NCBI GenBank assembly: GCA_945874765.1
Contig: CAMCHQ010000014.1
Location: forward strand, 1 to 50,487
Length of the DNA: 50,487 nt
Reading direction: 5' to 3'
DNA from: an uncultured Clostridia bacterium
GTDB taxonomy: Bacteria > Bacillota > Clostridia > Oscillospirales > Acutalibacteraceae
The notes below the pieces were generated by a model. The model made no database searches and had not been told where the DNA came from. It was given only the letters and a program-made list of their open reading frames with translations. The translations under genes were made by a program, and so were the position numbers. Positions 6,969 to 50,409 of the stretch are shown in pieces; within the stretch, counting starts at the first letter, position 1, and every line of letters begins with the position of its first letter.

Positions 6969-9302
6969 TTATTTTGTTTTGATTGATTTAACCTTTGACC
7001 AGGAAGAATAAACTTTTTTGCCGTTTACTGTTTTATAAGTGCGAACACGAACAAAATACGTTTTCTTAGACTTAAGCTTTTTAACTGTAGTCTTTGTTGT
7101 CTTTTGCTTATTTACGGTAACGCTCTTATTATTGTTTTTGAACTTTTTATCGGTAGAATACTGAATTTGGTATCCCTTAACACCGCTTACCTTTGCCCAA
7201 GTAACGGTAAATGACTTTTTGCCGTTTGCAAGTTTCTTAATTGAAGTTGACTTAGGCTTAGACACCTTATTTGCATTTGTTGTGCTCGGCTTAGTTGCAG
7301 GCTGAGTTGTTGAAGGTGCGGTTGTAGGTTCGCTTGGTTTTGTTGCAGGAACGCTAGGCTTAACCTCATCAGGCTTTGTGCCCTTAACCAAAACGTTTAC
7401 GCTTCTGTAAGCGGCATTATCACCCAAAGGACCCGGGTCAAAGAAGAAGTCGGTTTCCTCAACAAATGAAGCTGAATAATATGTCTTAACGGTAAGTTTA
7501 ACCATAGTATCCTTTTCGGGTCTTGTTACCTTACCTGTCTTTGCGTCGATAATTTCAGGGTGGTCGGATTCCCAGCTTGAACAGATTGAATAGTAGCTGT
7601 AATCATCTGTATTTGCGGTATTGATTAAATCAAGATTACCCGTTACATCTGCGGCACTCTTGTTTTCGCCCTTGATATTTGCAAAGTTAGCGGCATAAAG
7701 TGCTGCGCTGTCAAGTCTTTGAAGTCTTGTATATGTATGATAAGGAACTACTACTCTTAATTCGCTTTCCTTAGTTCTGTCACCGCAAGTCAAAGTAAGT
7801 GAAAGGTCATAAACAGCGCCGTAGAAATCCTCGTCATAATTTGAAGAATCAACGCCTTTATAATAGATATTGCCGTTTTTGAAAATTACGGTATTATCAA
7901 CGTCGCCGTCGATATTTTTAACCTCGTTTAATTTAACGGTAATTTTATCGTCTGACTTAACATTCTCATTTATCTTTTCTTCAACTGTATTGATAACGTT
8001 TGTATCCTGATAATCTGAGTCAACGTCTGAAACATAGCCGAAGTCGCCGTCGGTATGAACGCCTGAAAATTCAGTCATCATCATTCCGTCACCCGACTGG
8101 TTGAAAAGATAATCGTCTGCTTTTTTAAGAAGAGAGTCATAAAGTGAGTCAAGTTTAACGGTGATTACATAGTTATTATTTTTAAGAGCGGTATCGGTAG
8201 CGTTAAAAGTCTTGCTTACGCTAATGTAACCCTCAGCCTCAACAGTGTAGCGATACTGACCGAAAATTACTGTATAATATCCGTTTTCATCAGGTAAAAT
8301 TTCGTCACCGAATGCGCCGCTTGAACCGTTCTTTTTAAGAGTGATTTTTGCATTTTCAGGTGTAACGTCAAACTTAACCTTATATTCGGTATATTTAAGA
8401 TTTACTGTTACATCAAGTGACTTATCGCCCTCATTAACGGTAAATGTACCCTCTGCGCTCTGACTTCCGCTTTGATAAGTTGCATAGTATTTATATTCAC
8501 CGACAGGAAGTTCAAACTGCGAAGTTTCATAGCCGTATTCGTCCTCCAAAGGAGAATATGTTTTACTGCCGTCTGATGAAGTTACTTTCAAAGTTGCGTA
8601 ATCTGTTTTAGCGCCTGTTGCAAGATTAACGGTAAAATCAACCGTTGCACCCTCTTTTAACACAACGTCGAGTTTAGTATTTTCGGTTAAAGTGATTTTT
8701 CTTGTGTCACGAATATATCCCAAAGCCGAAACGGTAAGAGTATATTCCGTATTGCCTTTAAGTGACGAAAGATTTTGAGAAATATTGCGGCTGTCAAAAA
8801 CGCTTACATTTGCGTCATTGATAACTTCGCCTTTTTCGTTTTTAGCGGTTACGTCAAGAGAATAAGTAGGAAGCTCGGCTTCGATATAAAGAGCATAATC
8901 TCTTGTACCCAAAACAGTTTTGCCGTCATTCTTATCTAAAATTGTAAGAGTAAGAGTAACTACCTTAGCGCCCTGCTCATATTTAGGGTGAGTAATTTTT
9001 GCCGAAACGGAATAACTGCCTGACACCTTAGCATAAGTATCGTCGCTTGAACTCCAAGAGGCGGTATAAAGCTTTGATGAGGTGTCCTTTTTAAGTGAAA
9101 CGCTTGTTTTTGAAAGAGGGATAATATATCTGCCATCATCGTCTTTTTTAAGACTGCCGTACGGGTCTATTGCCTTAGCGTAAGTGCTGTTAAGGTATGC
9201 TTCGACCTCGCTTGAATTTTCAGCCATAGCAGGAATCGCACTCATAAGCACAAGCATAAGCGACATAAACACTGCCAAAACCTTAGTGATTGTTTTTTTC
9301 AT
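6969..9302 (-). CDS. Large secreted multidomain (Ig/PEGA/Fn3-like) surface protein
   Basis: A 777-residue exported protein of unknown function. From the ATG at 9302, chosen for its AAAGGAG site, a signal peptide MKKTITKVLAVFMSLMLVLM...AMA opens it. Then come an Ig-like region (about 30-150), PEGA-like segments with the pattern YTLTVSALGYIRDTRKITL (about 150-400), a middle region with SGDGMMMTEFSG, a degenerate bacterial Ig domain (ASWESDHPEIIDAKTGKVTRP-like, about 590-650), a Pro/Thr/Ser linker and a C-terminal Fn3-like domain ending SKVKSIKTK. No LPXTG anchor or enzyme motif was seen. It is a single transcription unit controlled by a cobalamin riboswitch and terminator upstream, which suggests repression when B12 is plentiful. 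No corrinoid-binding motif is recognisable. Confidence 0.85.
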   Translation of the reverse strand: MKKTITKVLAVFMSLMLVLMSAIPAMAENSSEVEAYLNSTYAKAIDPYGSLKKDDDGRYIIPLSKTSVSLKKDTSSKLYTASWSSSDDTYAKVSGSYSVSAKITHPKYEQGAKVVTLTLTILDKNDGKTVLGTRDYALYIEAELPTYSLDVTAKNEKGEVINDANVSVFDSRNISQNLSSLKGNTEYTLTVSALGYIRDTRKITLTENTKLDVVLKEGATVDFTVNLATGAKTDYATLKVTSSDGSKTYSPLEDEYGYETSQFELPVGEYKYYATYQSGSQSAEGTFTVNEGDKSLDVTVNLKYTEYKVKFDVTPENAKITLKKNGSSGAFGDEILPDENGYYTVIFGQYRYTVEAEGYISVSKTFNATDTALKNNNYVITVKLDSLYDSLLKKADDYLFNQSGDGMMMTEFSGVHTDGDFGYVSDVDSDYQDTNVINTVEEKINENVKSDDKITVKLNEVKNIDGDVDNTVIFKNGNIYYKGVDSSNYDEDFYGAVYDLSLTLTCGDRTKESELRVVVPYHTYTRLQRLDSAALYAANFANIKGENKSAADVTGNLDLINTANTDDYSYYSICSSWESDHPEIIDAKTGKVTRPEKDTMVKLTVKTYYSASFVEETDFFFDPGPLGDNAAYRSVNVLVKGTKPDEVKPSVPATKPSEPTTAPSTTQPATKPSTTNANKVSKPKSTSIKKLANGKKSFTVTWAKVSGVKGYQIQYSTDKKFKNNNKSVTVNKQKTTKTTVKKLKSKKTYFVRVRTYKTVNGKKVYSSWSKVKSIKTK

Positions 9303-9326
9303 CTTTTCTCCTTTCAATTTCGGGCA

Positions 9327-9356
9327 TAAAAAAATGCACCGTTTAAAACAGTGCAT
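9327..9356 (-). terminator. Riboswitch-controlled terminator in the leader
   Basis: On the minus strand ATGCACTGTTTT pairs with AAACGGTGCAT and is followed by seven T residues, 25 bases before the start codon of the secreted protein. A GCAGTGC segment just after the aptamer (9436-9430) is complementary to its 5' arm and could act as antiterminator. Confidence 0.8.
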
Positions 9357-9443
9357 AAAATTGTATAGCAAAAAAAGCATATGGGCATAGTAATCCCATA
9401 CGTTAAATACTGCCGACTTCCAACCTAAAGCACTGCAAAAACC

Positions 9444-9630
9444 ATATACACGGCAGGTCTCCCGACTTAAGCTTCAACCTTGAAATAAACCTTCTCACTC
9501 AAAAGAGCAATGGCCGCCTTTAGCGAATATTTCTCGTCAGCAAATACGGTAGAGGTTCGGACTGCTCCGGATTCACACCGGATTCCCTTTTAATTTTATA
9601 TTCAAAACAAATATAAAAACCTATGTATAT
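9444..9630 (-). ncRNA. Cobalamin riboswitch
   Basis: The minus strand carries the cobalamin aptamer hallmarks in order: AAAAGGGAATCCGGTG, GAATCCGGAGCAGTCC, a GCCATTG element (consensus GCCACTG), a GAGAAGG-type segment and the B12 box AAGTCGGGAGACCTGCC. ATATACA at the 5' end (9630-9624) and TGTATAT at the 3' end (9450-9444) close the P1 stem. The stretch CCGCAACTGT after CAGTCC is replaced, so it is a divergent member. A consensus promoter precedes it and a terminator follows, so binding should end transcription of the secreted protein at 6969-9302. Confidence 0.92.
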
Positions 9631-9642
9631 CAGATTTGCTTT

Positions 9643-9671
9643 ATTATATCTTGCGCTGCGGTATTTGTCAA
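9643..9671 (-). promoter_or_regulatory. Promoter of the riboswitch-controlled unit
   Basis: A fully consensus promoter, TTGACA (9671-9666) and TATAAT (9648-9643) with a 17-base spacer, starts transcription just before the aptamer. Confidence 0.9.
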
Positions 9672-9691
9672 TATTTGTAAACGTAATAAAA

Positions 9692-9720
9692 GACAGCCCG
9701 AAAATCAGACTGTCTTTTTT
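9692..9720. terminator. Terminator after the CmpB-family gene
   Basis: GACAGCC (9692-9698) pairs with GACTGTC (9708-9714) with one mismatch, flanked by A- and T-runs. It follows the stop codon of the gene at 9741-10436 and closely resembles the terminator at 6898-6927. Confidence 0.75.
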
Positions 9721-9740
9721 GTTGTGCAAAGGCTACGGTA

Positions 9741-10436
9741 TTACTTATTTACTTTTTGGGAATTTGCATATATCTCTTTCATTCTCTCATCGGGGAAATG
9801 GTTATCAAGATACTGCTCATAAACATTATTAGGTGCCTGACCTGCGTCACGCTTATCCATTCTAAGTCCTGCCGTGGCGGAAACGAATGAATCGAAAATA
9901 AAGAACACAATGAAAGCCCACATAATAACGCTGCCGAGTTTGACGGGGATTTTTTCAATAACTTTTGACATTATAGGATAAATTGCCTTAATCCAAAGCA
10001 CACCCAAAGCGCCCCAAAAGCAAGAATAAAGAAAGCACACTCTGCCGTTGATATTAAGCGGCATATTGCTGTAATTCCACGCAACAGAGCCGAAAACTAT
10101 TTCCTGACCCAAAGAGCAGATATATTCCGTCACCGTGCCGACAATGAACGATACGATAAACACTTTCCAAATAGGTGCGTCTTTAACCTTATAAAGAGCA
10201 AGGGTTAAAACAACGGCGCCTATACCGTAAGCAACGGAGAACGGACCCCAAACAAGCGATTGACGTGATTCGATATAGCCGTGTTTAATGAGGCACCAAA
10301 GAGTTTCAACAAGAAAGCCTACAATACAGCTAATCATAAAAATCCAAACAATTTTGTCAAAGCACAAGCCTTCGGCGTATTCGCCATTTTCCTGCACTTT
10401 TTCCTGAGTATCATTCTTTTTTAAAGTATCAGTCAT
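9741..10436 (-). CDS. CmpB-family integral membrane protein (putative ABC transporter permease)
   Basis: A 231-residue membrane protein matching the family Pfam calls ABC_trans_CmpB, whose function is not established. After a charged N-terminus it has about five hydrophobic segments, starting with IVWIFMISCIVGFLVETLW; the family motif ESRQSLVWGPFSVAYGIGA follows, then a second TEYICS and CFLYSCFWGALGVLWIKAIYPI. No ATPase lies next to it. It is transcribed alone from an extended -10 promoter with a GGGAGG ribosome binding site. Confidence 0.8.
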   Translation of the reverse strand: MTDTLKKNDTQEKVQENGEYAEGLCFDKIVWIFMISCIVGFLVETLWCLIKHGYIESRQSLVWGPFSVAYGIGAVVLTLALYKVKDAPIWKVFIVSFIVGTVTEYICSLGQEIVFGSVAWNYSNMPLNINGRVCFLYSCFWGALGVLWIKAIYPIMSKVIEKIPVKLGSVIMWAFIVFFIFDSFVSATAGLRMDKRDAGQAPNNVYEQYLDNHFPDERMKEIYANSQKVNK

Positions 10437-10617: not shown

Positions 10618-12000
10618 TTATTCATATATACCGATTGATTTAATAACAGGGTTTGAACGGCTTTGGCGGATAACGAAGCGGATACCCTTTGCCTTTTTGC
10701 CTTTAAGATTAATAATCTTTTCAGCGCCGATAACAGTGCCCTTATAAACACGCTTATATTTGCCGTTTGCCTTTTTGATATAGAGGTCGAAAACCTCAAC
10801 TCTCTGGCTTTTTGTGATATCCTCTTTCAAAACGACGAAATTAACCTTACGTGTATCGTTAAAATCGAAATCGAGAACGCCGTTATCCTTTGTAAGCTCA
10901 CCGAGTTCGTGATAAGCGATAGGATTTGCGGTGATATTCTTAATCATTTTACCGAGTTTTTTAAGGTTTTTGACGTCTTTTTTATGAATTTCACCTTGTG
11001 CATTAGGCGGAATATTAAGTAAAAGAGTGCAGTTATTGCCTACGGAATTAAGATAAATTTTGAAAAGTTTTTTAGCGCTTTTTGAATTTCTGTTATCCTT
11101 TTCGTGGAAGAACCAACCCTTACGGATTGACACGTCGACCTCGGCAGGGAACCAGCAGATATAAGCGTTCTTTTCAAGAATTTTTCTTGAGCCTAAATCC
11201 TCGTCCGTTTGGTTATATTTTTGAAGAGAGGAAGCCTGACTTTCGTCCTGCTGGCTCAAAGCCATAATTCTGTCAGCCTCTCTCAAAGCGCAAGGTACAA
11301 CGCTGTATTCGCTCTTTCTCGACTTACCGCCCTCGTTACCTACCCAGCGGATATCAGGACCGCAGATAGCAATATTTGCCTTAGGCTGAAGTTTACGGAT
11401 AAGGTCATAATATCTTTGCCAATCGTATTCAAATTTCTTAGCGTTTGAACCCTTAGCGCCGTCGAACCACACCTCGAAAATCTCGCCGTAATTTGTGAGA
11501 AGTTCGGTAAGCTGATTGCAAAAATAATCGTTATAAGCGTCAGTTCCGTAACGTTCATCGTGCATATCCCAAGGGGAAAGATAAACGCCGAAATCCATAC
11601 CCTGCTTATGACATTCGTCGGACACTTCTTTGACGATATCGCCCTTATACGATGAATTTTTCACGCAGAAGTCTGTGTATTCACTCGGCCAAAGGCAGAA
11701 ACCGTCGTGGTGCTTACAAGTCAAAATAACACCTGTTGCACCTGAAGATTTGGCAACTTCAACCCACTGCTTAGCGTTTATCGACTTGATTGTGAAATCC
11801 GTTGCCTTTTCAACACCTGCGCCCCACTCTCTGTCGGTAGCGGTATTCATACCGAAGTGCATAAAGGTATAAAACGGTTTGTCGGCAAGTCTAAGCTGAT
11901 TAGAGCTTGGTTTAACGGAGATATATCTTTCAACCTCATCACTGTTAAGCGGGCGGTTATTATTGGTAGTTGTCCAGTTTTTATTAAAATTCGAAGCCAT
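10618..12000 (-). CDS. Alpha-L-fucosidase, GH29 family
   Basis: Glycoside hydrolase that releases L-fucose from glycans by a retaining mechanism. The 460 residues show YTFMHFGMNT (44-53), KHHDGFCLW (96-104) and the nucleophile Asp180 in FEVWFDGAKG, all GH29 landmarks; a galactose-binding-like C-terminal region follows from about 370. There is no signal peptide or membrane segment, so it should act in the cytoplasm on imported oligosaccharides. It is the second gene after the GH38 gene, 13 bases apart, so the pair probably degrades fucosylated, mannose-containing glycans. The acid/base residue could not be placed with confidence. Confidence 0.92.
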   Translation of the reverse strand: MASNFNKNWTTTNNNRPLNSDEVERYISVKPSSNQLRLADKPFYTFMHFGMNTATDREWGAGVEKATDFTIKSINAKQWVEVAKSSGATGVILTCKHHDGFCLWPSEYTDFCVKNSSYKGDIVKEVSDECHKQGMDFGVYLSPWDMHDERYGTDAYNDYFCNQLTELLTNYGEIFEVWFDGAKGSNAKKFEYDWQRYYDLIRKLQPKANIAICGPDIRWVGNEGGKSRKSEYSVVPCALREADRIMALSQQDESQASSLQKYNQTDEDLGSRKILEKNAYICWFPAEVDVSIRKGWFFHEKDNRNSKSAKKLFKIYLNSVGNNCTLLLNIPPNAQGEIHKKDVKNLKKLGKMIKNITANPIAYHELGELTKDNGVLDFDFNDTRKVNFVVLKEDITKSQRVEVFDLYIKKANGKYKRVYKGTVIGAEKIINLKGKKAKGIRFVIRQSRSNPVIKSIGIYE

Positions 12001-12013
12001 ATTTTTCTCCTCT

Positions 12014-15000
12014 TTAATAATCCTTGCCCTTATTGTTATCCTTAATAAAATTATCCTTATCGTTCAAGCGCCATACGCATTTGTTATATACATATTGAAG
12101 CTTTTGAGCAAAATTAAGTTTGAATGTAAACGGTCTTTTCTCAACCTCGTCATAAGTCGGAGTTACAAGTTTTGACAAAGGCGCATTTGTCTGGCTTGCC
12201 GAAAGGACTACGATATCCTTATCGTCGGGCAATGTAATTTCCTTTTCGCCGTTTAAATCGAACTCGACAAGGTAAAAATACATTATCTTTGCATATTGAA
12301 CCTCACCGTCTTTGAGGCAATGGGTAAATTCATAGCCGATTTTGCCCTTTTTCATATAAGCCGTTTCGCCGAAATCGTACAAATCCCAGCCGGCAAAACG
12401 TTCAAATGACGAAAGAACGGTTTTATTTACTTTCTTATCCCCAAGGATAAATTCAGCGGTCTTATCCCCTGTAAGGCAAGCGCAGAGAAGGACAAGTCTG
12501 TTTTTATTTTCATCGAGTTTAATCTTTTGAGATGAGCAGGTAAGCGCATTTTTATCCGACTTATCAATATCGAATTTTACGCCGTTTGCCGTAATTTCAT
12601 CAGGTACAAGAGTATCAGGGATTGTATATTCAAAATCGCCCTTTTCACCTTTTTTGGTGATAATATTTTTATCAAGCGGTAATGAAACAGGCGTACTCTC
12701 GACCTTTTGAGTATCAAGTGAGTTCTTTTTAAGTTTAAGTGCAAAACTCTTTATCTCATAAGGCTTAAAGCTTGTGACAAGTTTGCCGTCTTTAACGGTT
12801 GCCTCACCCTTGTTTTCCTCGCTTGCATAAATTTCTCTGGCGCTTTCGATACCCTCACCCAAGGTAAGAGTAAAGTTTTCGACCTCTTTGTTCGCACCCT
12901 CGTTAAGTCTTACAACAATTTCGTCGCTGTTTTCCGCTTTCTTTATTGCACGGATAATGACGTCGTTAGTTGAGACCTCGCCGAAAGAATACTGAGTTTT
13001 AAGAGGACCTTGGTGCTTAGTAGAAATATACGCAGTCATAGGGGTAACAAATTTTCTCGCTTCAAGCTGAGTAGCCGATTGAGCCTTGCCCTTATGGCTG
13101 AAAATCGCATATGAATATCTGTTAAGACCCAAATCCATAAACGACTGCATAGAGTCGATACGGTAATTTTTCTTAGGGGTATGAAGCACTGTAAGGCGGA
13201 GAGTATTATCCTTATATTTATCCCAGCCGTACTTACATTCACTCAAAACAGACACGCCGAAATCACCGCTTTTATCGGTCAAATCAACCCACTTTTGTGC
13301 AGGGACTTCAAAAAGCTGTTCGCTCATATTGCCACGTTCGATAGCGCCCAAGCCCAAATCAAACGTTGCCTTTTCATTCTCACAGGTAAATGAGAATTTA
13401 TTTTTAGCAAGAGTTCTGAGGCTTTCCCACTCAATCTCGGAATAAACCTCAACTATATCACAGCCGTCCGTAAGGGCAACGATACTTGTAAACGTGCTCT
13501 TTTTATCTTGCTGGATAACCTTAAACGATACTCTCGCAGGGCCTTGCTCCAAAACAGTTACGGTAACAACGTTAGGAATACGGTCGGCGTCCTTATTTGC
13601 CTCTTTATAATTCATTTCCCAAGCAGGCCATTCCTTAGAACCCGTATAGTTAAACAGACCGAGAGTAATAGGCTCTTTTAAAATTTCCTTTTCGTCAAGT
13701 TCCTTATCAAGAATTGATGAAATATTACCCTTACGGTTAAGAGTTACGATATACTTTTGATTTTCCATCATATTATCGTGGTTAATGGAAATTTCACTCT
13801 TAACGCAACAAGGCTTATCACTCGGGCGAACATCATAAACTCTTGTGCCGAGGCTTTTAACGTCGGCAACAAAAACAAGTTCAAGCGTACCGTCGGAAAG
13901 TGTGGAAGTTTGGCTTTTAACCTCTCTTCCCTTTTCGTCATAAACACGGACATAAGCGCTTTGCAAATCCTCAAGTCTGACAGTTACTGCGCCACGTCTT
14001 TGTGCTTCAACGGGGTTATAAACCATAACGGGAATACCGGAGCAAAAATCAGTTTTCATAAGGCTTGAAACGGGTGAAACCGACGCTTCAAGTTCATTTG
14101 TAAACTGATTCATTGAAACGGCATAATCGTTCCAAGAACGTTTATATACTCTTTGACAGCTTGTGCCCGGGATATCGTCGTGGAATTGATGAGCAATAAA
14201 GCGCTTCCACGAACGGTTAAGTGATTTTTGGTTATAATCGGTCAAGCCCAAATAAGAGGACATAACACCGCCACGTTCGCTCAAATCGGCAAGTTCCTCA
14301 CATCTTCGATTCCAGCGCTTACCGATTGCACGTGAAGTATATCCGCCCACGCCGTGGTTTGTCATAACAAGTTCCGTTTTCCAAACAGGAAGTTTTTCCT
14401 TTTGCTCGGGCGTATATTTATCCTCGATATCGTGATAAATTTCATCGGCAGATGCGGCAACAACCTCAATATCGCTTTTATCATTTTTCTTGATTTCCTC
14501 TTCTACAAAGGCAACGCTCTTTTCATCCGGAGCACCGCCCCTGTCGCCTATACCGTGGAAAATATATGTATCGTTGAGGTCATATTTTTCATTTTCCTTA
14601 AACTTATCGAGAACGAAATCCCAGTCACGCAGTTTGGTAAGCGTATAGTAATAAGAATGAGGATTGATGGAAGCGTAAACCTCACTGCCGTCGACACCCT
14701 GCCACTTGCCGATATCAAACGGAGTGCCGTAAGCACCGCCCCACGCAAGTTTTTGAGTAGTAAAGCCTATTAAATTTGCGTGACGTTCGATAGTGGGAAG
14801 CGCCCAGCCGAATCCGAAACAGTCGGGAAGATAGATATCAACGCTTCTTTTGCCGAATTTCTCGTCAAAATAGGAATTTCCGAAAAGAATATTTCTGAAA
14901 AGCGCCTCGGGTGACGGAATGTTGACGTCGCCGTTTTCAAAAGCGGAACCGCAGACATTCCACCTGCCCTGCTTTATGTATTCTTTCATTTTCTCGAAAA

Positions 15001-15199
15001 GCTCAGGGTAATATTCCTCCATAAGCTCATAGCGGTACGAGCCCTCAAACGAGAATTTATATGTAGGATATTTTTCAAAAAGTTTGAAATTATCAACCAA
15101 GGTGTTATAGATATATTTACTTACGGTTGTTTCAAAATCCCAGCTCCACACGGTATCAAGGTGTGAAGTTGCGACTGTATAAATTTTTTTCTTAGGCAT
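12014..15199 (-). CDS. Alpha-mannosidase, GH38 family
   Basis: Metal-dependent retaining alpha-mannosidase of 1061 residues. The N-terminal catalytic domain has the zinc-binding HLD at His13-Asp15 (TSHLDTVWSW) and the nucleophile Asp126 in YLPDCFGFGWALP; the conserved GSAFENGDVNIPSPEAL lies at 84-100. A middle three-helix bundle (around 280-380, with AHQFHDDIPGTS) and long beta-rich C-terminal domains follow, as usual for GH38. No signal peptide is present, so it is probably cytoplasmic. The start has an AAGAGG site. It is followed 13 bases later by the GH29 fucosidase and preceded by leuS across a repeat-filled gap of about 250 bases. Confidence 0.93.
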   Translation of the reverse strand: MPKKKIYTVATSHLDTVWSWDFETTVSKYIYNTLVDNFKLFEKYPTYKFSFEGSYRYELMEEYYPELFEKMKEYIKQGRWNVCGSAFENGDVNIPSPEALFRNILFGNSYFDEKFGKRSVDIYLPDCFGFGWALPTIERHANLIGFTTQKLAWGGAYGTPFDIGKWQGVDGSEVYASINPHSYYYTLTKLRDWDFVLDKFKENEKYDLNDTYIFHGIGDRGGAPDEKSVAFVEEEIKKNDKSDIEVVAASADEIYHDIEDKYTPEQKEKLPVWKTELVMTNHGVGGYTSRAIGKRWNRRCEELADLSERGGVMSSYLGLTDYNQKSLNRSWKRFIAHQFHDDIPGTSCQRVYKRSWNDYAVSMNQFTNELEASVSPVSSLMKTDFCSGIPVMVYNPVEAQRRGAVTVRLEDLQSAYVRVYDEKGREVKSQTSTLSDGTLELVFVADVKSLGTRVYDVRPSDKPCCVKSEISINHDNMMENQKYIVTLNRKGNISSILDKELDEKEILKEPITLGLFNYTGSKEWPAWEMNYKEANKDADRIPNVVTVTVLEQGPARVSFKVIQQDKKSTFTSIVALTDGCDIVEVYSEIEWESLRTLAKNKFSFTCENEKATFDLGLGAIERGNMSEQLFEVPAQKWVDLTDKSGDFGVSVLSECKYGWDKYKDNTLRLTVLHTPKKNYRIDSMQSFMDLGLNRYSYAIFSHKGKAQSATQLEARKFVTPMTAYISTKHQGPLKTQYSFGEVSTNDVIIRAIKKAENSDEIVVRLNEGANKEVENFTLTLGEGIESAREIYASEENKGEATVKDGKLVTSFKPYEIKSFALKLKKNSLDTQKVESTPVSLPLDKNIITKKGEKGDFEYTIPDTLVPDEITANGVKFDIDKSDKNALTCSSQKIKLDENKNRLVLLCACLTGDKTAEFILGDKKVNKTVLSSFERFAGWDLYDFGETAYMKKGKIGYEFTHCLKDGEVQYAKIMYFYLVEFDLNGEKEITLPDDKDIVVLSASQTNAPLSKLVTPTYDEVEKRPFTFKLNFAQKLQYVYNKCVWRLNDKDNFIKDNNKGKDY

Positions 15200-46290: not shown

Positions 46291-46327
46291 ATTTACATTA
46301 TTGCAAAAAATTTACATTATTGCAAAA
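46291..46327. repeat. Tandem repeat upstream of a promoter
   Basis: ATTTACATTATTGCAAAA occurs at 46291-46308 and 46310-46327, period 19. The second copy spans the stop codon of the LRR/dockerin gene. It may be a regulator site for the gene at 44966-46222 or a slippage product. Confidence 0.75.
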
Positions 46328-48239
46328 TTTCACGATATGTATCCTCTCCGAGTTTTGAAAACGTATAAAATTCCTTTGCAAAAGCCCAATCGTCATCGGT
46401 CAAAACACCGTCTTTGTTCGAATCGAGATTTTTCAAAAGCAGATTGTTTGAATCGTTTATATCATAATTTTTCAGGTGGACGAAAATGCCGTAATCCTTT
46501 GCATTGATATATCCGTCGCCTGTCAAATCCCCGCAGATAAGACCGATATTTCCGACATACGCTTCATCTTTCGTGATTTTTATTTTTCTCTCAAGCGTAA
46601 AATCGCTTTTTAAAACAACACAGTCATATGCATATTCGACATAGAAATAGCCGTCTTTATCCGTTTTTGTAAGATATTTGCCGTCTTTATCGTAAACGCT
46701 TACACCCTCAAGCGCCCTGTTTTCATCAATCGTGCCGTCGGCGCCCGACATAAGATACACGTGGCCGTAAATATCCTGACCGAGATAATCGACATAATCG
46801 CCCCTGTACGTATATCCGCAGTAGGTGCACGTATAAACGGTATAGCCGTATTCACTGACTGTAGGCTCAACCACTTCTTTATCAAACGAATGATTGACGG
46901 TTATCGTAAAATCAAGCGTTTTATCCCCGACCGTAATCGAGTCTTTATTTTCACCGCAGGTAACTTTGCCGTTTAAAAGATTGTTATATGTAATTTTCAT
47001 TCCACGGTATGTTGCGCCGTTATTAAAAGGCATTTTGTAAACATATCCGCTTGCATATTCAAAGTCGATTGTCTGAGTTTTGATATATTCCAAAACGGAA
47101 AAATTAACGTCTTTAATCTCCTGCGCCTGATACGTTTTATCCCACGAAATCGAGATACCCACTATCCTCTCGCTTGAAAGAGAAACGGTATAATCGCCCA
47201 AAGAATTGACGCTTGTTACATAAAAATAATAGACTTTATCCGCTTCAAAAGTATATTTAATCGTAAAATTAAGGTCGCTTTCGCTGTTGTCGTCGCTTTC
47301 AATAAGAGTGTTGCCGTCGCCGTCTTTTAAAACGCAGTTTACATCGACGTCACCGCTTGAAGAAAAAGTGTATTGCGTTGCGGTTTTGGGGGTGAATTTA
47401 TATATCATTTCCTGCGTAAGATTATCCGACGTATATGTTCTCAAAGCGCTGTCGCCCTCGTTAATTTCAATCTCGTTTAAAAGGACATAATCGATATAGT
47501 GACCTTTTGCATAATCGTAAGCCTTTGAACCGCTGAAAACGCCGAGAGTAAAGCCGTCGTAAGTGCCGTCAACGCTTGCGCTTTTATAGCCGAAACTGTA
47601 AGGTGAAAGTTTAAAACCCGACGGAATATCAACCCTTTTAAGAGACGGGCATTTGAAAAAAGCACGCTGAGATACCGAGCCTTGAGCGCCCATTGCCTCA
47701 AAAGTCACTTTTGACAAAGAGGTGCAGTTTTCAAAAGCAGAAGTGCCGATTGACAAAACGCTTTTGGGAATGGTTATATCCGTTAATTTATCGCAAAAAT
47801 AAAATGCGTAAGAGGATATATATTTAAGGTTTTTATCAAGTGTGATATTTTTTATTTTAGAGTCGGCAAAAGCGTAACCGCCGATACTTTCAATACTGTC
47901 TGCAAGAGAAATATCGGTGCAGGAGGTGCTGTAAAAAAAGTAGCTTCCTATATACGTTACACCCTGCTCTACAACGATATGCTCAATCGAGCCGTCATCT
48001 CTGTAAAAAAACCACGGCTGAGAAGAGGAGCTTCCGCTTGAATTGGTGAAATCGGGAGTTCTGCCCTGACCTGAAATTTTAAGCGTTTTACTTGCAAAAT
48101 CATATGAATAATATGTATTGGTGTCCCCGAGCCTTGTGGGTGCAATATCGCTTGTTTGGCTTGCAAAAGAAACGTCGCATATGCCCAAAACACTCACAAA
48201 AAGCGAAAGAGACAAAAATATTGAAAGAAGTTTTTTCAT
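46317..48239 (-). CDS. Secreted BspA-type LRR protein with dockerin-like C-terminus
   Basis: A 640-residue exported protein. Signal peptide MKKLLSIFLSLSLFVSVLG. Residues about 90-250 are BspA-like leucine-rich repeats (IESIGGYAFADSKIKNITL, LTDITIPKSVLSIGTSAFENC). A PPC-like domain (about 260-360), a CTYCGYTY ribbon-like motif and a carboxypeptidase-regulatory-like beta segment follow. The end (about 570-625) has two calcium-loop repeats, DLTGDGYINAKDYGIF and NLDSNKDGVLTDDDWAFAKEF, as in type I dockerins. It may attach to a cohesin scaffold or to partner surface proteins; no cohesin is seen here. It has its own promoter. Confidence 0.85.
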   Translation of the reverse strand: MKKLLSIFLSLSLFVSVLGICDVSFASQTSDIAPTRLGDTNTYYSYDFASKTLKISGQGRTPDFTNSSGSSSSQPWFFYRDDGSIEHIVVEQGVTYIGSYFFYSTSCTDISLADSIESIGGYAFADSKIKNITLDKNLKYISSYAFYFCDKLTDITIPKSVLSIGTSAFENCTSLSKVTFEAMGAQGSVSQRAFFKCPSLKRVDIPSGFKLSPYSFGYKSASVDGTYDGFTLGVFSGSKAYDYAKGHYIDYVLLNEIEINEGDSALRTYTSDNLTQEMIYKFTPKTATQYTFSSSGDVDVNCVLKDGDGNTLIESDDNSESDLNFTIKYTFEADKVYYFYVTSVNSLGDYTVSLSSERIVGISISWDKTYQAQEIKDVNFSVLEYIKTQTIDFEYASGYVYKMPFNNGATYRGMKITYNNLLNGKVTCGENKDSITVGDKTLDFTITVNHSFDKEVVEPTVSEYGYTVYTCTYCGYTYRGDYVDYLGQDIYGHVYLMSGADGTIDENRALEGVSVYDKDGKYLTKTDKDGYFYVEYAYDCVVLKSDFTLERKIKITKDEAYVGNIGLICGDLTGDGYINAKDYGIFVHLKNYDINDSNNLLLKNLDSNKDGVLTDDDWAFAKEFYTFSKLGEDTYREILQ

Positions 48240-48361: not shown

Positions 48362-48625
48362 GTAATATTTTAACTGTGATTAGGAGAGTAATTATTTATT
48401 TTTCTTCAGAGAGCCGACGGTCGGTGCAAGTCGGTGTGGGTAAATAATGAAAAACACCTATGAGTTTTCCGAAAGAACGCAGTAATTTATCAGCGTTACT
48501 GTTATTAGACTCGGACGTGTCGGAGCGTTAATCCTTTGAGTGAGTTGCATTTTTATGCGGCTAATTTAGGTGGTACCACGGAAGCAGTCTTTCGTCCTAT
48601 TGGACTTAAGGCTGCTATTTTTATT
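48362..48625 (+). ncRNA. T-box leader of aspS
   Basis: A tRNA-sensing leader. Stem I has a lower stem TAGG/CCTA (48381-48384, 48457-48460), an upper stem ATTATTTA/TAAATAAT (48391-48398, 48441-48448) and the AGAGAG and GGTGCAAG apical motifs. The T-box AGGTGGTACCACGG is at 48568-48581. A terminator with GCAGTCTTTCGTCC and GGAC...AAGGCTGC arms (48584-48615) and a T-rich run follows. The specifier loop side is GAAAAACA (48449-48456); in the usual GAA-N-codon-A frame the codon is AAC (Asn). No Asp codon is present in that loop. Confidence 0.92.
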
Positions 48626-48657: not shown

Positions 48658-50409
48658 ATGGAATTTTCAACACTTTACAGAACAAAGCCTATGAACGAAT
48701 TTTCAGAGGCTGACATTAATTCTACAGTTAAGATTGCCGGCTGGGTTGAGAACATTCGTGACCACGGCGGTGTATCTTTCATCGACCTTAGAGATATGTA
48801 CGGCGTAATGCAGGTTGTTATGCGTGACACAACTCTTCTTGACGGAATAAGCAAGGAGGATTGCCTTTCAATCGAGGGTATCGTGGAAAAGAGAGATGAG
48901 GACACAATCAACCCGAAAATCGCAACGGGTACAATCGAGGTTGAGGCTAAAAAAGTTACAACACTCGGCAAGGTAAGGCAGCCGCTTCCTTTTGAAATTC
49001 AGACTTCTAAGGAAATCCGTGAGGACAAGAGGCTTCAGTACCGTTTCCTTGATTTGAGAAACGAAAAGGTTAAGGACAATATCATTTTCAGAAGCAAGGT
49101 TATTGCATATCTTCGTCAGGTTATGACTGAAATGGGATTTTTGGAAATGCAGACCCCTATTCTTTGCGCCTCCTCTCCCGAGGGTGCACGTGACTATGTA
49201 GTTCCGTCCCGTGTTCACAAGGGCAAGTTTTATGCTCTTCCGCAGGCACCTCAGCAGTACAAACAGCTTTTAATGGTATCGGGTATCGACAAGTATTTTC
49301 AGGTTGCTCCTTGTTTCAGAGATGAGGACGCAAGAGCAGACCGTTCACCGGGTGAATTTTATCAGCTTGACTTTGAAATGGCTTTTGCAACACAGGAGGA
49401 CGTTTTCAAGGTAGGCGAGGAAGTTCTCACAAAAACATTTGAGAAGTTTGCACCTAAGGGCTACAGCGTAACGCAGGCGCCTTACCCTGTTATCAGCTAC
49501 AAGGAATCAATGCTCAAATACGGTACAGACAAGCCGGACCTTCGAAATCCGCTTGAAATTGTTGACGTGACTGAATTTTTCCAGCGCTGCACATTCAAGC
49601 CGTTCCACGGACAGACAGTAAGAGCCATCAAGGTTCACGAGGATATTTCAAAGGGCAAGCACGAGAAGCTTCTCAAATTTGCTCAGTCAATCGGTATGGG
49701 CGGTCTCGGCTATCTTCTTGTTTTGGAGGATAAGTCATACAAAGGACCTATTGACAAGTTTATTCCGGACGATATGAAGAGTGAGCTTGCAGACATTGCA
49801 AATCTTGAAGTAGGCGACACAATCTTCTTTATTGCCGACAACGAGGCTAAAGCCGCAGAATATGCAGGTCAAATCAGAACAAAGCTCGGCGAAATGTTTG
49901 ACCTTTTGGAGAAAAACGCTTACCGTTTCTGCTTTATCAACGATTTCCCGATGTTTGAATACAAAGAGGAAGAGAAGAAAATCGGCTTTACTCACAATCC
50001 GTTTTCTATGCCTCAGGGCGGTCTTGAAGCGCTTGAAAACGAGGACCCGCTTACTATTCTCGCATATCAGTACGATATCGTTTGCAACGGCGTTGAGCTT
50101 TCATCGGGTGCAGTTCGTAACCACGATATCGATATTATGAAAAAAGCATTTGAAATTGCGGGATATGACGAGGAAGTGCTCAAAGAGAAGTTCGGCGCTC
50201 TTTACACCGCATTCCAATTCGGCGCACCGCCACACGCAGGTATGGCACCGGGTATTGACAGAATGATTATGCTTCTCAGAAATGAGGACAACATCAGGGA
50301 AATTATCGCATTCCCGATGGACGGCAAGGCTCAGGACCTTATGTGCGGTGCTCCAAACGAAATTACAGAGCAGCAGCTTCGTGAGGTTCATATTAAGCTC
50401 AGGAAATAA
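48658..50409 (+). CDS. aspS: Aspartyl-tRNA synthetase (bacterial type)
   Basis: Class II synthetase charging tRNA-Asp, and possibly tRNA-Asn. The 583 residues comprise the OB-fold anticodon domain (VKIAGWVENIRDHGGVSFIDLRD), motif 2 FRDEDARADRSPGEFYQLDFEM, the bacterial GAD insertion domain (about 290-400) and motif 3 GAPPHAGMAPGIDRMIMLL. The start has AAAAAGGAG eight bases upstream. A T-box leader with an apparent Asn specifier controls it, which would fit a non-discriminating enzyme feeding the GatCAB pathway; this is inference. Confidence 0.97.
   Translation: MEFSTLYRTKPMNEFSEADINSTVKIAGWVENIRDHGGVSFIDLRDMYGVMQVVMRDTTLLDGISKEDCLSIEGIVEKRDEDTINPKIATGTIEVEAKKVTTLGKVRQPLPFEIQTSKEIREDKRLQYRFLDLRNEKVKDNIIFRSKVIAYLRQVMTEMGFLEMQTPILCASSPEGARDYVVPSRVHKGKFYALPQAPQQYKQLLMVSGIDKYFQVAPCFRDEDARADRSPGEFYQLDFEMAFATQEDVFKVGEEVLTKTFEKFAPKGYSVTQAPYPVISYKESMLKYGTDKPDLRNPLEIVDVTEFFQRCTFKPFHGQTVRAIKVHEDISKGKHEKLLKFAQSIGMGGLGYLLVLEDKSYKGPIDKFIPDDMKSELADIANLEVGDTIFFIADNEAKAAEYAGQIRTKLGEMFDLLEKNAYRFCFINDFPMFEYKEEEKKIGFTHNPFSMPQGGLEALENEDPLTILAYQYDIVCNGVELSSGAVRNHDIDIMKKAFEIAGYDEEVLKEKFGALYTAFQFGAPPHAGMAPGIDRMIMLLRNEDNIREIIAFPMDGKAQDLMCGAPNEITEQQLREVHIKLRK

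Follow-up and report, generated by a model that had tools for sequence, protein, structure and literature searches.

The single cobalamin riboswitch in the stretch of uncultured Clostridia DNA analysed here (50,487 nucleotides, the window) precedes a gene for a secreted Ig-like protein, P0001, which may act as a B12-repressed scaffold or accessory of a transcobalamin-like system for capturing corrinoids at the cell surface. Judged from sequence comparisons, this reading has in our view an even prospect of being right. It is favoured by the riboswitches found before P0001 and both of its clear homologues, by the leader layout common to the three, by the modules suggestive of B12 capture that lie behind 69 of the 76 cobalamin riboswitches of the genus, and by three informative loci (L264, L224 and L071). 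It is weakened by the lack in P0001 of the two domains typical of those modules (DUF4430 and an alpha-toroid-like domain, the alpha domain), by the location of the probable partner operon on another contig, by the rarity of homologues, and by two single-domain relatives (L265 and L266) for which no riboswitch was seen in the stretch fetched.

The original prediction described a consensus promoter, a cobalamin aptamer closed by a P1 stem, a GCAGTGC antiterminator candidate and a T-run terminator before a gene for a signal-peptide protein with Ig/PEGA/Fn3-like domains, and these features were all recovered (Table 1). The RF00174 covariance model, run on the window, matched over its full length (1–189) at a score far above the gathering score of 31.5 bits, and the same aptamer was recovered by a whole-genome RF00174 search; that it is a genuine aptamer of this class is close to certain. 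It lies in the 5′ leader between promoter and gene and, as judged from the sequence, is joined to an expression platform. In the interval 9250–9750, both strands taken together, there are two promoter-like sites against a mean of 1.4 in shuffled sequence, with all 12 consensus matches at one of them only, and three terminator-like sites where shuffled sequence gave 0.5 on average. The first two bases of the GCAGTGC arm (9436–9435) are also part of the aptamer closing stem. A further hairpin followed by a 7-T run, at 9402–9378, is an addition to the features originally described; it was absent from the output of the terminator scan, and could be an earlier terminator or else belong to the antiterminator stem. 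A strong terminator-like hairpin of 14 pairs (9718–9688, minus strand) lies just before the promoter and would close the preceding gene on the same strand (9741–10436, ABC_trans_CmpB).

Table 1. Positions in the window of the P0001 gene, two of its domains and the elements of its leader
Feature	Position	Strand	Basis
Promoter TTGACA–17 nt–TATAAT	9671–9643	−	12 of 12 consensus matches
Cobalamin riboswitch aptamer, RF00174	9640–9435	−	cmscan 90.4 bits, E 3.6e-21; closed by GCAAA/TTTGC and a neighbouring stem (predicted fold)
Antiterminator 5′ arm GCAGTGC (candidate)	9436–9430	−	7/7 pairing with 9354–9348; AGTGC × GCACT in predicted fold
TTTAGGTTGGAAGT	9429–9416	−	Identical in all three P0001-type leaders
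First hairpin, then C and 7-T run (T at 9376–9370)	9402–9378	−	−10.0 kcal/mol (predicted fold)
Intrinsic terminator hairpin, T6 tail at 9333–9328	9356–9334	−	10 pairs (terminator scan); −11.2 kcal/mol (fold)
Antiterminator 3′ arm GCACTGT (candidate)	9354–9348	−	Within terminator 5′ arm; predicted fold and leader comparison
Ribosome-binding site AGGAG	9312–9308	−	By eye
P0001 gene, 777-aa secreted protein	6969–9302	−	ORF; Pfam; borders outside Pfam matches by eye
aBig_2 domain, P0001 residues 545–605	7488–7670	−	PF20578, E 3.1e-7, 30.5 bits (cut-off 27)
C-terminal Fn3, P0001 residues 692–761	7020–7229	−	PF00041, E 1.5e-7, 32 bits, over cut-off

P0001 has two clear homologues, making three such proteins in two genera. 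In a genus sample of 80 genomes, the window's own included, a relative matching outside the Fn3 domain was found in one of the 79 others (G075, locus L064; query positions 1–659 of 680, 55% identity; L139, on a contig of equal length, 28,921, was taken as the same locus and counted once). A family sample of 398 genomes, again including the window's own, contributed one more (G255, locus L262; profile positions 223–671, E = 2e-186), which is without the N-terminal domains and is well conserved in the common part, with 51% identity to the window protein. The aBig_2 scores of the two homologues (20.7 and 24.6 bits) are both under the cut-off. In four further family genomes the match was limited to one domain or section, at E values from 7e-5 to 9e-8, and in two of these (L263 and L264) the gene lies behind a cobalamin riboswitch. 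A search of viral contigs gave no relatives. Given that clear homologues are so few (one in 79 other genomes of the genus and one in 397 others in the family sample), the proposed corrinoid system usually works without P0001.

A cobalamin riboswitch precedes all three genes, scoring 97.9 bits in G075 (contig C9) and 97.5 bits at L262, and the layout of the leaders is the same throughout: TTTAGGTTGGAAGT stands directly after GC(A/G)GTGC, and is followed by the first hairpin region and then by the terminator, whose 5′ arm can pair at 7 of 7 positions with GC(A/G)GTGC. The third pair of this helix is A–U in the window and G–C in the other two leaders, a two-sided change. A partner with seven pairs was also obtained by chance in 184, 234 and 413 of 2000 shuffles when the three leaders were treated singly, and a second possible partner lies after the terminator at L262 (7 pairs) and at L064 (6 pairs), so the support that the leaders lend to antiterminator pairing is moderate.

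On the switch model that we prefer, transcription would start at about 9636. When B12 is scarce, the GCAGTGC:GCACTGT helix would form and break the terminator, so that the gene is read; when B12 is bound, the aptamer and its closing stem would hold, the terminator would form and the gene would be off. The ligand and the OFF direction are those expected of the class, since B12 riboswitches are described in the excerpt of PMC6143338 as binding B12 and repressing downstream expression. The model is weakened by three results. In the minimum-energy fold of the window leader the closing stem and the antiterminator are present together, which makes folding alone insufficient to show a switch; the predicted fold of the L064 leader has the terminator and lacks the antiterminator; and seven-pair partners recur in the shuffles.

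The protein itself begins with a stretch that resembles a signal peptide by eye (residues ∼1–27), followed by aBig-like and PEGA/CarboxypepD_reg-like domains (∼28–386), the aBig_2 region, a linker and the C-terminal Fn3; the CarboxypepD_reg match in Pfam is below threshold. The target is, as originally proposed, a secreted protein and neither a transporter nor a synthesis gene. At the position of the Fn3, both homologues have an SPxTG-hydrophobic-basic tail (alignment A11), which we take to be a sortase-type anchor, and because this tail stands in its place the Fn3 of P0001 may serve surface retention. There are 16 further matches to P0001 in its own genome, and those listed cover the Fn3 end. 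We also looked for a hidden corrinoid-binding domain and reject one on the searches made: Pfam gave no DUF4430, NCBIfam no family at E 0.1, and a PDB profile search no relative of note (the best match, at E 0.27, was a fragment of a SusC homologue). With filters off, P0001 scored 0.5 bits against our DUF4430 profile (A7) and −6.9 bits against our alpha-domain profile (A6), results being expressed as bits in these and other searches of two to four sequences, and the hhalign probabilities were 0.4% and 0.1%, respectively.

The genome that carries the window (G000; 2.27 Mb, 99% complete) has only two cobalamin riboswitches. The other one (G000:C7:62992–63178, minus strand) is followed by a 280-aa lipoprotein-like protein with DUF4430 (E = 4e-21, 75.7 bits, cut-off 23.8), the only DUF4430 match in the whole genome, and then by a 447-aa secreted protein in which an alpha domain is combined with an Fn3-like stretch at the C terminus. 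Together the two products give the appearance of a transcobalamin encoded as two separate genes. The toroid fold of the alpha domain is assigned indirectly, from the overlap of A6 with Prenyltrans/SQHop matches in L200, L216 and L224; at L193 and L177 A6 matches where Pfam shows no toroid, and among the 30 members of the A6 set the only toroid family in Pfam at E up to 1 was one TED_complement match (0.03). We also sought to tie the alpha domain directly to transcobalamins of solved structure and dropped the idea, as a PDB profile search with A6 returned no relative and no transcobalamin; with the DUF4430 profile, transcobalamin-2 appeared at E 1.4, seventh among matches at chance level. The genome encodes a B12-binding protein that reads as MetH (named by eye), and has no match to CobS or FecCD at E 1e-3. 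With a MetH-like protein present and no CobS match, the cell seems to use B12 and to be unable to make all of it.

We then placed P0001 against the other riboswitches of its genus. Cobalamin riboswitches were found in 72 of the 80 genomes, four of which have two, and the surroundings of all 76 were examined, some of them ending at contig ends. Secreted proteins with DUF4430 and/or the alpha domain follow 69 of the 76, scored as A6 or A7 matches in frames within 1.3 kb downstream: 22 riboswitches have both domains, 40 the alpha domain only and 7 DUF4430 only, whilst 2 precede P0001-type genes and 5 are without a match. Beyond 3 kb downstream there were 127 frames of 150 codons or more, and none gave a match. 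The training sets of A6 (30 proteins) and A7 (19) were drawn from these same loci, which makes the match automatic for 31 of the 76 riboswitches; where the proteins lie outside both training alignments, the figure is 38 of 45. When Pfam was used by itself, with E 0.01 as the limit, 25 of the 69 first genes showed DUF4430, and no family for the import or synthesis of B12 was recognised among the 25 of 32 Pfam families listed or the A6, A7 and A2 matches. These first genes form alignment A1 (69 members); L071, at 2,293 aa, was scanned separately for its length, and six riboswitches had no scripted first gene, the ORF calls being made by simple scripts, with the first genes of L063, L070, L075, L094, L110 and L132 recovered as frames. 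The five riboswitches without a match comprise L100 and L116, where the contig runs out, L120 and L130, which are cut by a contig end and resemble the DUF4430 giants by eye only, and L127 (G032:C1:53349–53524, minus strand), where a match of 45.8 bits has no recognisable gene downstream. The arrangement in the window, which had been taken as unusual, is accordingly the rule in this genus. The same count makes the proposed link to corrinoid capture stronger, because 69 of 76 riboswitches, the genome's other one among them, precede such proteins; that part of the original prediction is now more than a guess.

In all four genomes with two riboswitches, one of the two heads a DUF4430 and alpha-domain operon. 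The second precedes P0001 or its homologue in G000 and G075, and a DUF4430 giant in G011; in G079 its protein is cut by a contig end and is giant-like by its start only. With the P0001 profile, L071, a DUF4430 giant that is itself riboswitch-led, is found at 3e-7 in two stretches, and the other giants (L106, L120, L133 and L134) only weakly, at E 0.003–0.19. An ORF of 87–92 aa lies between the riboswitch and a large surface protein at L106, L120, L123, L129, L130, L131, L133 and L134. The one at L106 is an HNH_repeat protein (PF18780, 5e-13), the other seven look alike by eye, and the family also occurs in 4 of 59 first ORFs elsewhere in the order.

Cobalamin riboswitches outside the genus served as a control. 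From 134 listed, 125 of them over the cut-off, 60 were taken: every one of the 14 in the same family, and the top match from each of 46 genomes of other families, in table order. As no ORF was present at L232, the set came to 59 first ORFs; these are stop-to-stop frames, and some are probably not genes. Among the 25 of 44 Pfam families listed for these, the counts were DUF4430 18, CbiM 6, SLH 6, CbiD 4 and Peripla_BP_2 3; for the 56 second ORFs (25 of 64 families listed), they were DUF4430 6, CbiN 4 and FecCD 3. On these counts, the order does have the usual targets, DUF4430 proteins are often found in addition to them, and the genus stands at the extreme. Two further loci bear more closely on P0001. 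At L264 three genes stand in a row behind a single riboswitch and on its strand, with a gap of 349 bases between the first and the second. They encode an aBig_2/Glug-like protein (4.6e-5) and a DUF4430-like protein (2.9e-4), both below the cut-off, and a protein with an alpha-toroid (SQHop_cyclase_C, 30.7 bits, above the cut-off). At L224, also riboswitch-led, an alpha-toroid and DUF4430 occur in a single chain.

Taking the row of genes at L264 with the weak similarity of P0001 to the giants, the simplest reading of these sequences places aBig_2/PEGA proteins in one and the same surface system, as a part fused to DUF4430 in the giants and as a protein on its own in P0001. After export P0001 would then stay at the cell surface and act there as a scaffold or accessory of Ig/PEGA type, and the parts that bind corrinoids would most likely be the DUF4430 lipoprotein and the alpha-domain protein of the C7 operon. 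A broader proposal, which we put forward tentatively and rate somewhat below an even prospect, is that this genus of Gram-positive-type bacteria uses its cobalamin riboswitches almost exclusively for a split transcobalamin anchored at the surface. Its parts would be a DUF4430 lipoprotein and an alpha-toroid protein, joined in some lineages by a P0001-type Ig/PEGA scaffold that either organises the other two or itself binds corrinoids, and the whole would feed a B12 permease in cells without FecCD (BtuC-type) or CobS.

P0001 could instead be an adhesin or envelope protein for which B12 is only a signal, for example one that attaches the cell to corrinoid-making neighbours or to particles when B12 is scarce. 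The Ig/PEGA/Fn3 domain make-up would suit such a role, as would the recurrence of the C-terminal Fn3 in the genome. We consider this unlikely, in that it leaves aside the modules suggestive of B12 capture behind 69 of the 76 riboswitches and the aBig_2-like protein that stands beside such modules at L264. It is also rather unlikely that P0001 is a corrinoid binder in its own right, with Ig/PEGA-like domains that stand in for DUF4430 and the alpha domain and with no need of partners. A riboswitch of its own in all three cases, good conservation of the part common to L262, and the fact that the second riboswitch of G000 and G075 occupies the place of the DUF4430 giant in G011 all favour self-binding. 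Against it, P0001 matches no known corrinoid-binding family in Pfam, NCBIfam, the PDB profile search or A6/A7, and it is this element of the original prediction, binding by P0001 itself, that found no support.

Two other accounts concern the riboswitch. Were it degenerate or an ON switch, P0001 would be produced under ample B12 and could serve in storage or competition; the coexistence of closing stem and antiterminator in the most stable predicted fold would fit, but the strong aptamer score and the repression that is characteristic of the class in the excerpt of PMC6143338 make this very improbable. A chance fusion of riboswitch and gene after a rearrangement, which the rarity of P0001 in the genus might suggest, is rejected with near certainty, because the clear homologues are riboswitch-led in three cases of three, in two genera, and keep the aptamer, TTTAGGTTGGAAGT and the terminator/antiterminator layout, and because the aptamers of the window and L064 are mutual nearest neighbours among the 76 (76.7% identity). 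The outcome named in the original prediction as pointing to such a fusion, homologues that consistently lack the riboswitch, is thus not what these three genes show.

Elsewhere in the window, adjacent genes of the alpha-L-fucosidase and GH38 alpha-mannosidase families lie at 10618–12000 and 12014–15199 (minus strand), and a BspA-type leucine-rich repeat gene (46317–48239, minus; LRR_5, 1.6e-29) possibly encodes another surface protein. A T-box leader (RF00230, 130.3 bits) at 48367–48602 on the plus strand lies directly before 48658–50409, which reads as an aspartyl-tRNA synthetase (tRNA-synt_2 with a GAD domain).

Corrinoids are shared and contested nutrients in microbial communities. If the riboswitch-led proteins described here bind them, Gram-positive-type anaerobes would have a surface capture of their own, built of domains that also occur in the animal B12 carriers. 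Dozens of unnamed surface proteins would then gain a testable function, and the finding would bear on the origin of the animal B12 carriers. P0001 would be a rare Ig-type member, of a kind that a search for DUF4430 would miss.

The usual targets of cobalamin riboswitches are B12 importers, synthesis genes and isoenzymes, as were also met in the order-wide control. The window shares with the RF00174 class a full aptamer, an upstream promoter and an expression platform of terminator type, whereas the target here is a secreted Ig-like protein. Among the papers listed in searches of the open-access literature of PMC, where six mention DUF4430 at all, we recognised none that describes control of DUF4430 proteins or of Ig-like proteins by a cobalamin riboswitch in bacteria of this kind, and the excerpt of PMC2667541 contains nothing on these riboswitch-led proteins.

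CbrT (of ECF type) and BtuM are listed as B12 permeases (PMC5997447, PMC6072759). Nine of the control loci, all outside the genus, begin with a small ORF, behind which lies the gene for a conserved protein of membrane type (alignment A10). By eye this protein is similar to an ECF S component; as NCBIfam gave no family for the three members scanned, the ECF label is a guess. The A10 profile matches in 23 of the 80 genus genomes at E 1e-3 or better, with no match in the genome that carries the window.

Transcobalamin, intrinsic factor and haptocorrin have in common a fold made up of an alpha-toroid and a C-terminal beta domain. The C7 operon, with its DUF4430 lipoprotein and alpha-domain protein (a putative toroid), and the single chain of L224 recall transcobalamin in their module content; DUF4430 is itself placed in the C-terminal region of TCN proteins in the excerpt of PMC4350170. 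The genus differs in that the modules are two genes, or only one of them is near the riboswitch, and P0001 has neither.

Surface-exposed capture of B12 from riboswitch-controlled loci is described for BtuG of Bacteroides, a seven-bladed beta-propeller lipoprotein adjoining btuB (PMC6143338, in excerpt). P0001 is unlike BtuG, as there is no propeller family among its Pfam matches and no lipobox cysteine by eye. Two PQQ-type beta-propeller proteins, one with aBig_2 and one preceding a DUF4430 gene, are encoded behind cobalamin riboswitches (L263:983–3319 and L184:2165–3757, both minus strand), and are reminiscent of the BtuG propeller. BtuG is the nearest characterised case of riboswitch-controlled capture of B12 at the cell surface.
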